Shown: positions 10,841-57,355 of the stretch, piece after piece | Position numbering within the stretch: the first letter of the stretch is position 1 | How the letters are laid out: every line of letters starts with the position of its first letter | Source of the DNA: Dysgonomonadaceae bacterium PH5-43 | Lineage (GTDB): Bacteria > Bacteroidota > Bacteroidia > Bacteroidales > Azobacteroidaceae | Assembly (NCBI GenBank): GCA_029916745.1 | Contig: JARXWK010000020.1 | Span: 1-63,509, forward strand | DNA length: 63,509 bases | Direction: 5' to 3' | Notes under the pieces: model-generated | Database searches by the model: none | The model's input: only the letters and a program-made list of their open reading frames with translations | What the model was told of the DNA's origin: nothing | Position numbers and translations under genes: made by a program

Positions 10841-12073
10841 ATGGTACTTAATTACATTTGGATAGCATTTTTCGTTATAGCCTTCGTTGTCGGATTATGT
10901 AAGGTAATCTTTACAGGCGATATGAACATCTTTACCGATATGATGAATGCGACGTTCGACGCAGCTAAGAATGGATTTGAAATATCTATCGGTCTAACAG
11001 GCGTGCTTTCCCTTTGGCTCGGATTTATGAAGATAGGAGAGCGTGGAGGAGTCGTGAACTTCTTATCGCGAGCATCAGCACCAGTGTTTACCCGTCTGTT
11101 TCCCGATATTCCGAAAGGACACCCCGCAACAGGATCTATATTTATGAACATAGCCGCCAATATGCTTAACCTCGACAATGCCGCTACTCCTTTGGGACTC
11201 AAAGCAATGAAGGAGATGCAAGACTTAAACAAGAATAAAGATACGGCAAGCAACTCTATGATAATGTTTATAGTGCTGAATGCTTCGGGGCTTACCCTTA
11301 TTCCTGTTACCATTATGGTTTACCGAACCCAGATGGGAGCTGCCAACCCAGCCGATATATTTGTTCCCCTTATGATTGCCACCTTTGTAGCAACTCTTGC
11401 CGGAGTAATATATGTATGCATACGACAAAAGATTAACATCTTCGACAAGGTATTGCTCAGCTTTTTCGGAGGCATCATAGCCTTTATCGCCTTAGTCGTA
11501 TGGTGGGTTAAATCGTTGCCACAAGAAGACGTTTCTATGTATTCGTCTTTAATAGCAAACTGCTTTTTGTTTTGCATCATCATCTCATTTATAGTTGCAG
11601 GAGTAAGGAAAAAGATAAACGTTTACGATGCCTTTATCGATGGGGCTAAAGACGGATTTAAGACCGCCATTATGATTATTCCTTATCTTATAGCAATGTT
11701 GGTTGCGATAGCCCTGTTCAGAACCTCGGGAGCTATGAGTTTCATTACCGAAGGCTTAGCATCTGGCGTAGCCGCAATCGGACTTCCTACCGAATGGGTC
11801 GACGCTTTCCCCACCGCAATAATGAAACCCTTAAGTGGAAGCGGAGCAAGAGGTATGATGATTAATACTATGCAAACTTTCGGAGCCGACTCTTTCGCTG
11901 GGCGATTAGCCAGTGTTTTTCAAGGCTCTACCGATACAACTTTCTACCTCATAGCCGTTTATTATGGAGCGGTAAATATAAAAAACACTCGTTACTCCAT
12001 TGCAGGCTCTCTGATAGCCGACCTTGCCGGAGTGCTTGCCGCAATATTTGTCTGCTACTTATTCTTTGGGTAA
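10841..12073 (+). CDS. Nucleoside-recognition domain membrane protein (fused SpmA-SpmB-like)
   Basis: A 410-residue polytopic protein. The first half resembles spore maturation protein A (GVLSLWLGFMKIGERGG; PKGHPATGSIFMNIAANML) and the second half protein B (KTAIMIIPYLIAMLVAIALFR; MKPLSGSGARGMM; GSTDTTFYLIAVYYG). Both halves belong to the nucleoside-recognition (Gate) family. Fused forms are ordinary in non-sporulating Bacteroidetes, so no sporulation is implied. Transport substrate is unknown. A fragment of this gene (from base 11870) is duplicated at 12343-12366. Confidence 0.85.
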   Translation: MVLNYIWIAFFVIAFVVGLCKVIFTGDMNIFTDMMNATFDAAKNGFEISIGLTGVLSLWLGFMKIGERGGVVNFLSRASAPVFTRLFPDIPKGHPATGSIFMNIAANMLNLDNAATPLGLKAMKEMQDLNKNKDTASNSMIMFIVLNASGLTLIPVTIMVYRTQMGAANPADIFVPLMIATFVATLAGVIYVCIRQKINIFDKVLLSFFGGIIAFIALVVWWVKSLPQEDVSMYSSLIANCFLFCIIISFIVAGVRKKINVYDAFIDGAKDGFKTAIMIIPYLIAMLVAIALFRTSGAMSFITEGLASGVAAIGLPTEWVDAFPTAIMKPLSGSGARGMMINTMQTFGADSFAGRLASVFQGSTDTTFYLIAVYYGAVNIKNTRYSIAGSLIADLAGVLAAIFVCYLFFG

Positions 12074-12100: not shown

Positions 12101-12258
12101 GTTTCAAATTTGTTTCACCCGTGTGAAACAGGTTGTTTCAGCTGGGTGAAACGAGTTGTTTCAGTTAGGTGAAACAAGTAGTTTCAGTTAAGTGAAACGA
12201 ATTATATCAAAGTAAGAAACAGATTATTTCACCAGTATGAAATAATCTGTTTCAAAGT
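12101..12258. repeat. Family A palindromic tandem array, copy A1
   Basis: TGAAAC starts at 12124, 12147, 12170 and 12193, and GTTTCA at 12101, 12112, 12135, 12158 and 12181. This gives strict 11/12-bp alternation (23-bp period) before it degenerates with a 22-bp period up to 12258. It fills most of the 314-bp gap 12074-12387. It shares unit order with the 27.9 kb and 46.8 kb copies (e.g. GAAACGAATTATATCAAA). No coding frame is evident. Confidence 0.85.
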
Positions 12259-12292
12259 ATTAAATAAATTGTATTGTCGGAAGAAAGATTAT

Positions 12293-12346
12293 TGCTTTCT
12301 TGTTGCACTTCAAAGAAGTTAATTCGTTAACACATATCATAAATGC
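12293..12346. repeat. 54-bp duplicate of an internal leuS segment
   Basis: Matches leuS bases 13817-13870 with one mismatch over 54 bp, in the same orientation. It ends at ATGC, which is also the first four bases of the SpmAB-derived piece that follows. Confidence 0.9.
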
Positions 12347-12380
12347 AGACTTTCGGAGCCGACTCTTCGTTAACGAATTA
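12320..12380. repeat. Inverted repeat in the scar region
   Basis: TAATTCGTTAAC (12320-12331) pairs with GTTAACGAATTA (12369-12380). The right arm is an inverted copy of the leuS-derived sequence and lies just before the stop of the acyltransferase gene at 12388. It might act as a weak terminator, but there is no good T tract. Confidence 0.6.
12343..12366. repeat. ~24-bp duplicate of an SpmAB-like gene segment
   Basis: Matches 11870-11893 (ATGC, A/G, then ACTTTCGGAGCCGACTC) with one substitution. It is joined to the leuS-derived piece by the shared ATGC at 12343-12346. Confidence 0.8.
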
Positions 12381-12387
12381 TCTCAAA

Positions 12388-13479
12388 TTAAACCTTATAT
12401 AGAGATTTTCTCTTTAATTTAAGAACTCTTTTTTCAACTAATGTCCAGGATAACCATCCTGCTAATAAACAGATAATTATTAAAGGGATGAATATCCATT
12501 CATCTCTTAACCTTAATTCATAAAAAGCATTTATAACTAAAAAATGATAGATATACAGACCGTACGATATATCAGTTTTTCCAATTAATTTAGAAGTTAA
12601 TTCAGGCTTTGTATATGCGAAACTAAATATACTCAAAACTAAAAAACAATGAAATAAAAGTTCCACAAAGTTAGGTTCATATGCTCCCGGATCATAACCC
12701 AAATAATAACCAATAGAACACAGAATAATATATGAAAAAATAAAAAGGAAGCCTTTATGTGCAATAAGAGGAATGATTCGTTCTTTGTTTAAATAAACAA
12801 TAATACCAAAACAAAAGAAAAAGAAAAAATTTACAAATTGTAAAAAAGGATTTATAAATATCAAATAATATCCATTGTCCGAAAAAGAAGATAAAAAGGT
12901 ATGTAAAAAATGGGTTTGATTCTGAGCGTATGAAATCATTCCTAATAATAGGAATATTACTGTTTTTACTCGATTGTTATATCTTTTAATAAAGAAAAAG
13001 ATAAGAGGAATACTTAAATACAACAATATTTCTACACTAATAGTCCATAGTGCAGCATTGGGAGCACTACCTACTCCAAAGCCTTTAATAATCGAAGGTG
13101 TAAATTCTTGTATAAAGGTTAGTTGGGTGAAAATCCATAAAATAAAACTACTGCTTTTTAATTCATTTGTGTTTAAATGCCCGAAATAGATTAACAGTGT
13201 GATTGTTAATATTAAACAACAGATAAGAGCAGGGTAGAGTCTTAAGAAGCGATTTACAAAATACGTTTTCCAGTTAGGATTATTTTCATAAGACCAATAA
13301 ATTAAAAAACCACTTAATGTGAAGAAAATAGGGACACCATTAAACAACGAAAGATATTTAAACCAGTTAGGAACTGAAATGATGAGATGTAAATGCGTTA
13401 TTAATACCTGAAAAGCCGCAAATAAACGAATCAAATTAAAGTTATTTACTTTGTAGTCGATTAGTTTCTCCATGTGCAA
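12388..13479 (-). CDS. Acyltransferase family 3 membrane protein
   Basis: A 363-residue integral membrane O-acyltransferase of the Acyl_transf_3 (OafA/NodX-like) type, with about ten spans. Typical features are NFNLIRLFAAFQVLITHLH near the N-terminus (conserved RxxA and His), GVPIFFTLSGFLIYWSY, and FVNRFLRLYPAL. Members acetylate or acylate surface sugars; the acceptor here is unknown. It follows leuS after 10 bp and may be cotranscribed from its promoter. The gene is notably AT-rich with poly-Phe runs, and the duplicated leuS fragment beyond its 3' end suggests it arrived through local rearrangement. Confidence 0.8.
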   Translation of the reverse strand: MHMEKLIDYKVNNFNLIRLFAAFQVLITHLHLIISVPNWFKYLSLFNGVPIFFTLSGFLIYWSYENNPNWKTYFVNRFLRLYPALICCLILTITLLIYFGHLNTNELKSSSFILWIFTQLTFIQEFTPSIIKGFGVGSAPNAALWTISVEILLYLSIPLIFFFIKRYNNRVKTVIFLLLGMISYAQNQTHFLHTFLSSFSDNGYYLIFINPFLQFVNFFFFFCFGIIVYLNKERIIPLIAHKGFLFIFSYIILCSIGYYLGYDPGAYEPNFVELLFHCFLVLSIFSFAYTKPELTSKLIGKTDISYGLYIYHFLVINAFYELRLRDEWIFIPLIIICLLAGWLSWTLVEKRVLKLKRKSLYKV

Positions 13480-27908: not shown

Positions 27909-28060
27909 GTTTCACCCGTATGAAACAGGTTGTTTTATTAGTATGAAACAAAGTGTTTCACCTATATGAAACAAGTGTTTTCAAACCATGAAACGAATTA
28001 TATCAAACCGAGAAACGGATCGTTTCAAAGTATGAAATGGATTATGTCTATGTATGAAAC
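27909..28060. repeat. Family A palindromic tandem array, copy A2
   Basis: TGAAAC-type units start at 27921, 27944, 27967, 27989, 28011, 28033 and 28055, and GTTTCA-type units at 27909, 27932, 27955, 27978, 28000 and 28022. The spacing is 23 bp and then 22 bp, with the two motifs offset by 11-12 bp. It is an inverted copy of A3 (46794-46945). The gap 27720-28378 holds only repeats and terminators; I see no gene in it. Confidence 0.88.
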
Positions 28061-28081: not shown

Positions 28082-28149
28082 TGAACTAAGAACTAAGAGT
28101 GAATAACTAAGAGTTGGCGCGAAGCGGCAAGCGACTAGTCTTTGTTGCG

Positions 28150-36779: not shown

Positions 36780-36855
36780 ACACTCAAACAACGATACACT
36801 ACTACGTTTATTTGCTAACAACTTTAACTCTATTTTGCAACGTTTTACGTCAACT

Positions 36856-36965
36856 CTTAGTTCTTCATTCTATCTCCGTAGGCAACGCTTCGCTCGCCGT
36901 ACGGCTATGGAATTTTTACCCTTTGGGTGACTTAACTTTTATCTTTTAGTTTTTAGTTTTTAACT
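36856..36965. repeat. Family C connector, direct repeat copy 1 (~110 bp)
   Basis: Nearly identical to 36999-37109. It contains CTTAGTTCTTCA, TCTATCTCCGTAGGCAACG, CTTCGCTCGCCGTACGGCTA and TTAACTTTTATCTTTTAG. The gap 36780-37795 (about 1 kb) holds these repeats, family B and the tlpA promoter; I see no gene in it. Confidence 0.85.
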
Positions 36966-36998
36966 GCGAGTTTGCTCGCTTGTCGCTTCGCGCCAGTT

Positions 36999-37109
36999 CT
37001 TAGTTCTTCACTCTATCTCCGTAGGCAACGCTTCGCTCGCCGTACGGCTATGGAAGTTTTACCCCTTTGGGTAACTTAACTTTTATCTTTTAGTTTTTAG
37101 TTTTTAACT
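36999..37109. repeat. Family C connector, direct repeat copy 2 (~111 bp)
   Basis: Tandem partner of 36856-36965, separated by 33 bp that include GCGAGTTTGCTCGCTTGTCG. It runs directly into family B copy B1. Confidence 0.85.
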
Positions 37110-37402
37110 TGTGAAACACAAAGCTTCACTTAGGGTCTTCTCTCTTAGTAGAGACCCCTCTTCTCTCTTAGTAGATAGGCGAGGTCTCTCTACTAAGAAC
37201 GGCGGGGTGTCTTAAGTATAAAGACGAGACCGTTATACTAAGAGCGGTATCGGGTCTCTACTAAGAAGCAGCTCGCCTATCTACTAACAAAGGCGAGGGG
37301 TCTTTACTAAGAAGCAACCGCCCTTTCTACTAAGAGCAATAAGGGAGTTCTACTAAGAAGCGGAGAGAGTGCTCTATTAAGAGCAGCGAAGTGCTTCACA
37401 AG
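37107..37402. repeat. Family B array, copy B1, bounded by inverted ends
   Basis: About ten TCTTAGTAGA / TCTACTAAGA-type motifs are spaced roughly 25-30 bp apart and separated by GC-richer segments such as GGCGGGGTG, GCAGCTCGCCTATC and GGCGAGGGGTC. The ends are inverted repeats, CTTGTGAAACAC at 37108 and GTGCTTCACAAG near 37391 (11 of 12 match). The order of segments matches B2 at 57.1-57.35 kb in reverse complement, including an exact 18-bp end AAAGCTTCACTTAGGGTC. Confidence 0.85.
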
Positions 37403-37657
37403 AGAGATAGAGCCGACCATTTGTCCAGACGCTAACTTTTACGTTCTTCTCCGAGAGTTAAGAGATTTCATATAGTTGCCGATTGAGGGTAGTTTGCTTA
37501 CTCTCTTGTCTCCTTTCTTTAATTACACAAAGGGTCGATAATATCAAAATAATAGAAAAAATAGAAGTCTTGTAAAAATAAGTAAGTAGAAAAAATGTCG
37601 AGAATTTGGGTGAAATAGGAAAAAAAGAAAAAGTTTTCGCTGAATAGTTACTATGCA

Positions 37658-37665
37658 TAGCTTTG
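37658..37665 (+). promoter_or_regulatory. Possible -7 element TAGCTTTG for the TlpA-like gene
   Basis: Exact TAnnTTTG match, giving a long leader of about 125 nt before ATG 37796. No -33 element was found. Confidence 0.3.
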
Positions 37666-37795
37666 TGTAACGCATTTTAAAAACATAAATATTAATTACA
37701 ACTTGCAATTAAAATAAAACTCTTAAAACAACGTTATTACCTTAGTAACAGACAGCTTGCTTGTAATGATGGCAAGATGTCGTAAAAAATATACA

Positions 37796-46758: not shown

Positions 46759-46794
46759 AGCGAAACAGCCTACTTCAAGCCGTTTCGCTTTTTG
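46759..46794 (+). terminator. Rho-independent terminator after the GT4 gene
   Basis: An 8-bp stem AGCGAAAC / GTTTCGCT (46759-46789) is followed by TTTTT. Confidence 0.65.
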
Positions 46795-46945
46795 TTTCAT
46801 ACATAGACATAATACATTTCATACTTTGAAACGATCCGTTTCATGGTTTGATATAATTCGTTTCTCGGTTTGAAACTACTTGTTTCATATAGGTGAAACA
46901 CTTTGTTTCATACTAACAAAACAACCTGTTTCATTAGTATGAAAC
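46794..46945. repeat. Family A palindromic tandem array, copy A3 (inverted relative to A2)
   Basis: GTTTCA-type units start at 46794, 46816, 46838, 46860, 46882, 46905 and 46928, and TGAAAC at 46827, 46871, 46894 and 46940. The 22-bp and then 23-bp spacing mirrors A2. The reverse complement matches A2 nearly base for base. The gap 46720-47148 holds this array, a connector module and two terminators, and no gene that I can see. Confidence 0.88.
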
Positions 46946-46950
46946 GACAG

Positions 46951-47067
46951 ACAAGCAAGAAAAAAGTTAAAAGTTAAAAGATAAAAACTAAAAGTTGGCG
47001 CAAAGCGAAGCACATAACTCTTAGTTCTTCACTCTTAGCTCTTAGTTCTAAAAAGGCTGAAAGCCTT
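46951..47067. repeat. Family C connector module (46.95 kb, inverted copy)
   Basis: Contains AAAAGATAAAAACTAAAAG, GTTGGCGCAAAGCGAAGCAC, ACTCTTAGTTCTTCACTC and the hairpin AAGGCT GAA AGCCTT (47053-47067). It is the reverse complement of material at 27.82-27.90 and 28.06-28.11 kb. Confidence 0.75.
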
Positions 47068-57129: not shown

Positions 57130-57355
57130 CCTTCCCTCTATTACTAGATACCCCTTGTCGTTGTTACTAGATAGGCGAGCTGCTTCTTACTAGATACCCC
57201 ATGCCGCTCTTAGTAGATACCCCTTGCCGTTCTTAGTAGAACCACCCCGCCGAAGTCCTTAAAGCACCCCGCCGTTCTTAGTAGAGAGACCTCTCCTCTC
57301 TTAGTAGAGACACGAGGGGTCTCTTAGTAGAGAGACGACCCTAAGTGAAGCTTTG
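57130..57355. repeat. Family B array, copy B2 (inverted relative to B1)
   Basis: About eight ACTAGATA / TCTTAGTAGA motifs are separated by segments such as ACCCCTTGTCGTTG, GCGAGCTGCTTCTTAC and CACCCCGCCG. In reverse complement the segment order follows B1 (37.1-37.4 kb) and includes the exact 18-bp end GACCCTAAGTGAAGCTTT. It lies in the 456-bp gap 56971-57426, which otherwise contains only the structured element above. Confidence 0.85.

Follow-up and report, generated by a model that had tools for sequence, protein, structure and literature searches.

The window, by which we mean the entire 63,509-nucleotide stretch analyzed here, carries at positions 12101..12258 (plus strand) an array of alternating GTTTCA and TGAAAC hexamers, referred to below as family A, which is flanked by convergent ORFs at 10841-12073 (+) and 12388-13479 (-) and has homologous loci elsewhere in the genome. 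GTTTCA starts at 12112, 12135, 12158 and 12181, and TGAAAC at 12124, 12147, 12170 and 12193; all hexamer positions given in the initial annotation, together with its exact 23-bp period, are correct. An extra GTTTCA lies at 12101, degenerate later units extend to 12254, and the right end of the array forms a perfect 16-bp inverted repeat across two units and their spacers. The further copies that had been placed at 27.9 and 46.8 kb are present as well, with mixed 22- and 23-bp steps. The first (27909..28060, plus strand) lies inside a longer dispersed repeat, and the second (46794..46945, minus strand) belongs to the same subfamily in reverse orientation, the two arrays being mutually homologous. 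Each of the window's three family A arrays is located between convergent ORFs. With up to two mismatches allowed, TGAAAC-N5-GTTTCA has 18 matches in the window compared to 4.62 ± 1.99 in 100 shuffles (maximum 9); equally frequent matches in shuffled DNA, which had been named as the mark of a chance repeat, were thus not seen. The N6 version of the same pattern is at chance level (3 window matches; shuffle mean 4.80).

The window also holds two arrays of a second kind, family B, built on the motif TCTTAGTAGA/TCTACTAAGA, which is unrelated to that of family A and likewise recurs with a 23-bp period. One occupies 57130..57339 and the other lies in the 977-bp intergenic gap at 36780..37756, where the lag scan found it at lag 23, the gap coordinates following from the ORF list; neither is assigned a strand. 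Heptad repeats of the type AACTAAG/AAAAGTT adjoin many family A copies, in the window at 28090-28120 and 46957-47046. Just past the first array, the stretch 12291-12348 shows 81-93% identity to dispersed sites in six congeners (G012, G014, G006, G036, G007 and G018) and, judged from these matches, is probably a different dispersed repeat from the array.

The family A unit is one rigid dyad, GAAAC-N5-GTTTC (17 bp counting the outer T/A), repeated roughly three to ten times per array, in blocks some 160 bp long, with a pitch that varies slightly, being either 22 or 23 bp. GAAAC..GTTTC pairs with a gap of 0-20 are spaced at N5 in 63/63 cases at 19 Bacteroides loci, 90/91 at 28 non-redundant loci of the source genome and 22/23 at eight additional loci, and the linker between dyads measures 7 or 8 bp with few exceptions. 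As these loci were picked through N5 units, a search with free gaps is the better test: with the gaps freed (1-14 and 1-16), N5 and N7/8 were again found at 98 of 100 places in the source genome and 47 of 50 in genome G434, counted by hand among the matches listed. The spacing is therefore not an artefact of the search pattern. At 10.5 bp per turn of the DNA helix, 22-23 bp corresponds to 2.10-2.19 turns, and successive dyads therefore rotate by approximately 34-69 degrees. A face is common only to the two halves of a single dyad, 10 bp apart, and the earlier proposal that the motifs line up on one side of the DNA is not supported for the array. Of the selection on spacing that had been suggested, the fixed N5 within the dyad stands, but not the phasing of successive dyads on one face. 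Curved DNA is likewise disfavored, as the common feature does not appear to be an A-tract: TATTAATA, GTGCCA/TGGCAC and GTTTATTATAAAC serve as the motifs of other families with this period.

At least 43 family A loci, the window array included, are present in the 2.54-Mb source genome, of which the window is contig 20. BLAST with the window array recovered 40 distinct loci (L001-L040), which is a floor (40 of 56 candidates were scored), and at least three further loci occur in pattern lists only (C7:77970-78111, C9:74469-74598 and C15:76173-76212). The two-unit pattern has 37 matches when written with TGAAAC and 55 with GAAAC, with none for the reversed-pattern control in either case, while single units number 135 compared to 6 in the control. 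Many copies have common flanks or one common left end; among many copies in dissimilar contexts, homology stops near the array; the flanks themselves were inspected by eye. Three loci (L036, L038 and L039) have about 800 bp of right flank in common at 92-96% identity, probably through a recent long duplication. No plasmid match was obtained for the window array.

Outside the source genome, we scanned approximately 85,000 species, each represented by a single genome, for a strict 40-bp pattern (records of the source genome possibly being omitted). This returned 15 loci, all from records with Bacteroides, Parabacteroides, Paraprevotella or Mediterranea in the title and with spacers and surroundings dissimilar to those of the window. 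Single units exceed the control in nine of the ten genomes behind these loci (for example 79 vs 9, 67 vs 16 and 67 vs 4), in one of the nine barely (18 vs 15), and the tenth has 6 vs 7. In the genus group of B. faecalis (G436), which also includes the Mediterranea-titled G442, a two-unit match occurs in 34 of 119 genomes, with a maximum of 62 in one, and the remaining 85 have none; the control is non-zero in one genome. In an even order-wide sample of 393 genomes, the GAAAC two-unit version matches the source genome and none of the 392 others. The distribution is patchy. The question raised earlier of whether the arrays are conserved in other copies or in relatives can be answered affirmatively for dozens of loci in the source genome and for several Bacteroides-group genera (the four named above), but not for the nearest relatives sampled, as the strict pattern is absent from all 44 other genomes of the window's family. 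A Bacteroides array is matched by a single plasmid and by a single scaffold labelled as phage. We considered carriage by either element and rejected it, as the plasmid site sits between pectinesterase genes and the scaffold, judged from its ORFs, looks chromosomal.

G434 and G436 have four orthologous array loci in common, one of which is also found in G542 (L136, which came from flank homology and not from the pattern). Across all pairwise comparisons in these four sets, differences were counted at 4 of 330 positions in cores, 57 of 372 in spacers and 302 of 1304 in flanks. The value for the cores is somewhat optimistic, since the loci were picked for intact units and a core was counted if present in either sequence. 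The difference between core and spacer substitutions yields a Fisher p of 9.6e-13 with pairwise comparisons treated as independent. Paralogues within the source genome follow the same pattern, with a mean pairwise identity of 0.86 in core columns compared to 0.544 elsewhere (28 non-redundant arrays of 40, the 12 close copies having been removed), and together these values bear out the suggestion that selection acts on the hexamers. Distinct sequences account for 34 of 58 spacers and 57 of 69 linkers at 15 loci of G434 and G436; spacers are less free in the source genome (21 of 90 distinct, with 46 of 98 distinct linkers). The L116 site, compared in 30 of 105 matching genomes and over 600 bp only where the right flank was not located, has units in G434, G542, G436 and G443 and none in the other 26. 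Near a site orthologous to L116, a Bacteroides-group genome carries TGCGTTGGGCATTT repeated approximately every 23 bp (L164).

None of the 40 BLAST loci of the source genome lies inside a called gene. The adjoining genes are convergent at 13, co-directional at 12 and divergent at 9, with 6 unclassified (12/12/8/8 by the first ORF caller); at 29 loci of other genomes, orthologues included, the corresponding numbers are 8, 16, 2 and 3. A bias toward convergent genes, as for a terminator or supercoil role, was rejected: in the background samples, convergent gaps account for 6/26 gaps with a 22-23-bp array vs 8/74 in the source genome (p 0.19) and for 2/10 vs 17/99 in the Bacteroides group (p 0.69). 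The neighbors are mostly ordinary genes, as determined for 74 proteins of the source genome and 49 of 55 at other loci, the six from the orthologous loci L128, L132 and L133 being excluded. Gene-specific regulation was also rejected, with no listed family in more than three members among these 74 and 49 neighbors. Among the top 25 families listed, no recurrent regulator or HTH family adjoins the arrays (TetR_N occurs in 2 of the 74), and a transposase is absent from the listed recurrent neighbor families. The BT4734-like_N domain, in 3 of the 49 proteins, is the only neighbor family that looks mobile; its loci, guessed from flanks as L058, L059 and L063, lie near short repeats such as CCATCAC/GTGATGG. 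One of the 49 proteins has a RuvC_III domain.

The 22-23-bp period extends beyond family A. A background sample of the source genome was made up of the window and 19 fixed-coordinate stretches (443.5 kb, of which 46.1 kb is intergenic). In it, 354 recurrences of exact 8-mers fall at a distance of 23 bp, or 299 without the window, compared to approximately 1.6 per distance in shuffles. Lesser peaks at 7, 14 and 21 bp come from the AACTAAG/AAAAGTT heptad repeats. A lag scan of 162 intergenic segments found 26 at lag 23 and 6 at lag 22, with 0-3 at other lags from 12 to 40; 28 of the 162 segments carry a 22/23-bp array (23 of 137 without the window). Scripted sorting assigned these 28 to family A (7), family B (14) or neither (7), and by eye four of the last seven are degenerate members of A (1) or B (3). 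After this reading by eye, family B outnumbers family A, with 17 segments of the background sample vs 8; in several places its arrays adjoin TGCAAAGCTTCACTTAGGG.

Comparable recurrence was observed in the Bacteroides group, where G434 and G524 have a peak at 22 bp (40 and 43) and the small samples of G545 and G444 have weaker peaks at 21 and 20-22 bp, respectively. The arrays of this group use the motifs GTTTATTATAAAC, GTGCCA/TGGCAC, CCNAGGTNGAACG, TATTAATA and others. When gaps of 8-20 were permitted, TATTAATA was spaced at 14 or 15, equivalent to a 22-23-bp pitch, in all but one of the matches listed; its arrays occur in 11 of 119 genomes, with a control that is non-zero in 5. The 22-23-bp peak is absent from a 150-kb sample of E. 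coli K-12 (12.9 kb intergenic). In the wider order, sampled as 19 stretches of which one (258 bp) is without intergenic DNA, the pooled recurrence count peaks at 22 bp (46), with 10, 20, 7 and 16 bp next (34, 31, 30 and 27), and the 22-bp excess is due to L215, L220 and L221. The period is thus not universal in the order, and the wider-order peak is weak and unsharp. Since the 22-23-bp period is common to several dyad motifs that are otherwise unrelated, a machine seems to determine the period, and the specificity of that machine the motif.

We compared the arrays with known repeat and operator systems. CRISPR arrays have repeats of some 23-50 nt, unique spacers of similar length and cas genes; this assignment was rejected, as the conserved part of family A is only 5-6 nt, its spacers are 5-8 nt and its neighbors are mostly ordinary genes. 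REP/BIME elements are intergenic palindromic units arrayed at many loci. Family A resembles them in each of these respects but differs in having short dyads, a 22-23-bp pitch and free spacers; a Y1 (RAYT-type) transposase (PF01797) is absent from the source genome and was matched in one of six array-rich genomes. Operator arrays of XRE/CI-type repressors consist of two-fold operators with fixed internal spacing at a pitch near 22-24 bp, and the family A arrays have this geometry.

Viral contigs contain the two-unit pattern at 17 loci, and at 15 of these GAAAC-N5-GTTTC dyads with a 23-bp pitch lie directly upstream of a similar gene start, in the manner of XRE Cro/C1 operators of phages and ICEs. 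Of the remaining two, the L230 stretch stops before the gene, and L237 is different. The L228 gene, the sole one translated and family-tested, encodes a Cro/C1-type HTH protein whose best PDB match is the Xre-family regulator of ICEBs1, suggesting that elsewhere the same dyad, at the same pitch, serves next to a gene for an HTH repressor. The viral operators comprise a dyad pair plus a third dyad near the gene's own promoter region. Unlike them, family A has about three to ten dyads at dozens of loci without an adjoining repressor gene, and we leave the arrays outside the class of phage operators. A cognate repressor adjoining the arrays was not found among the neighbor families listed. A search of the source genome with the phage repressor gave three weak matches only (E 6.6e-4 to 2.1e-3); one of these relatives (L248) has a single loose site with one mismatch per half, and the other two have no similar site nearby.

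Among published repeats, the closest relative in design that we found is BrickBuilt of Porphyromonas gingivalis, a 23-nt intergenic tandem unit that, in the parts of the report available, is described at 19 places in strain ATCC 33277, in 1 to 22.8 copies, with a leader and a tail bearing IS5-like terminal repeats (PMC4596501). The same parts report it from P. gingivalis and P. gulae and treat it as a MITE with promoter activity (PMC4596501). It resembles family A as a 23-nt intergenic repeat with conserved and variable positions within the unit, and its printed consensus, by our own reading, also alternates inverted arms (TCTC/GAGA) (PMC4596501). It differs in that consensus, AGAYCATARTATCCTCTCRTRTG vs TGAAAC-N5-GTTTCA-N5/6 in family A units, and in being described as a MITE with leader and tail and not as an operator array (PMC4596501). 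Neither the GAAAC-N5-GTTTC motif nor 22-bp Bacteroides arrays were found in the open-access (PMC) literature searched. The initial annotation had known of no described family with this design; within that literature this remains accurate for the motif, but in its design the array does have a published relative, the 23-nt BrickBuilt repeat.

The family A arrays combine a rigid dyad, a flexible linker and conserved cores, and recur in several genera. The reading that we consider best, and to which we give about even credence, is that they are cooperative multi-operator DNA platforms for a candidate dimeric HTH protein. Each GAAAC-N5-GTTTC would act as a single operator of two-fold symmetry, bound by a helix-turn-helix dimer whose two recognition helices occupy major grooves 10 bp apart. 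With about three to ten operators spaced at 22-23 bp, neighboring dimers would be close enough to touch, and the array could nucleate a cooperative nucleoprotein patch in the non-coding DNA between mostly ordinary genes. Such a patch, we infer, would act on chromosome organisation or insulation and not on one regulon. Protein binding, the dimeric state and cooperativity are all proposed features of this model. A platform for a dimeric nucleoid or regulatory protein had been among the initial suggestions, and it is favored by the fixed dyad, the conserved cores with their freer spacers, a constraint on DNA and not on RNA, the viral dyads as a precedent for a protein that reads them, and the period common to unrelated motifs. 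Against it stand the weak matches to the phage repressor, the lack of a recurrent regulator among the neighbor families listed, the spacer complementarity of a subset of arrays, the patchy distribution and the lack of a robust position bias.

The main rival, which we judge rather unlikely, holds that the arrays are non-coding selfish repeats, MITE- or minisatellite-like, that spread and expand by slippage and have no host function, their cores being kept for a recombinase or transposase of their own. Lineage-specific amplification is consistent with this account, with 40 BLAST loci in the source genome, many of which share flanks or a left end. So is the absence of an array after the orthologous upstream gene at all 19 congener loci compared (L166-L184, from 26 other matching genomes), where the following sequence is unlike that of the window and a clean empty site was not seen. 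Whole units are, moreover, gained or lost between sister species in steps of 22, 44 and 66 bp. Against this account, four arrays remain at orthologous sites of G434 and G436 (one also in G542) despite spacer turnover; separate loci have common cores but not a common unit order, and in addition to the missing transposase among the listed recurrent neighbor families, Y1_Tnp is missing in five of the six array-rich genomes.

Nucleic-acid hairpins, either as runs of RNA stem-loops (mRNA 3' ends or terminators) or as cruciform-forming DNA, are an improbable explanation, even though the window array folds as RNA at -66.7 kcal/mol, where dinucleotide-shuffled sequences reach -25.6 ± 3.5 (z -11.7, and -11.2 on the opposite strand). 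The strong fold follows from the dyads themselves, as any dyad array must fold stably. With cores fixed and spacers shuffled, z was below -2 for 2 and 7 (two strands) of 28 arrays of the source genome and for 7 and 5 of 24 others, with mean values of -0.37/-1.13 and -1.34/-1.04, respectively. A minority, to which the window's own array belongs, has extra spacer complementarity (L001, z -3.6/-4.0; L016, -5.7/-5.5; L118, -5.5/-4.7) that plain binding does not predict; we read it as local template-switch correction, yet it is the strongest remaining hint of a structural role. Within the spacer, N1:N5 pairing is slightly above expected in three sets (10/21 vs 8.3, 15/34 vs 10.8 and 12/22 vs 9.4), whereas N2:N4 pairing is not (11/21 vs 10.7, 10/34 vs 14.9 and 1/22 vs 7.0).

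The deviations within the cores also argue against hairpins. On the sense strand, 3 deviants are wobble-compatible vs 11 that are not at 14 co-directional loci of other genomes, and 9 vs 12 at 12 loci of the source genome, some of them close copies; without a sense strand, the numbers are 9 vs 8 (11 other loci) and 19 vs 20 (source-genome set). Deviations in adjacent half-sites are almost always one-sided (91 in the source genome, with 2 complementary and 3 non-matching two-sided cases; 57, 1 and 4, respectively, in other genomes). As compensation for a deviant core is rare and wobble-compatible changes are not preferred, what is conserved is apparently not RNA pairing, and these sequence comparisons place the constraint at the DNA level. 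At gathering scores, Rfam matched only a tRNA in the window, leaving the arrays without a known structured RNA family. The alternative RNA hairpins proposed at the outset are thus disfavored, strong fold and partial spacer complementarity notwithstanding.

It is very improbable that the arrays are a mutational by-product of template switching at chance palindromes that multiplies and perfects inverted repeats, for although such correction would give products like the perfect 16-bp inverted repeat that closes the window array on the right, mirror-copy spacers would be expected generally and most tested arrays are without strong excess complementarity, and one GAAAC/GTTTC core in several genera and the common 22-23-bp period of unrelated motifs would be left unexplained.

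The arrays are real, their code is conserved, and they are patchily distributed and were not found in print in the literature searched. Extending the operator-platform reading, we tentatively propose, as a possibility that we would not yet call probable, an undescribed genome-wide class of arrays in which many unrelated dyad motifs at a 22-23-bp pitch would each have their own reader within a diversified family of cooperative dimeric proteins building nucleoprotein patches between genes; family A and BrickBuilt would both be members, and the pitch would be the signature of the shared machine. Arrays of 22-23 bp are present in about a sixth of the sampled intergenic segments of the source genome. 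Should they serve as protein platforms, they would amount to an extensive layer of chromosome organisation or insulation that has so far gone unread and is shared with gut Bacteroides; if they are selfish, they would show how a repeat can retain a trans-acting recognition code. Either way, BrickBuilt, presented as species-specific in the parts of its report available (PMC4596501), may be a single instance of a broader phenomenon.
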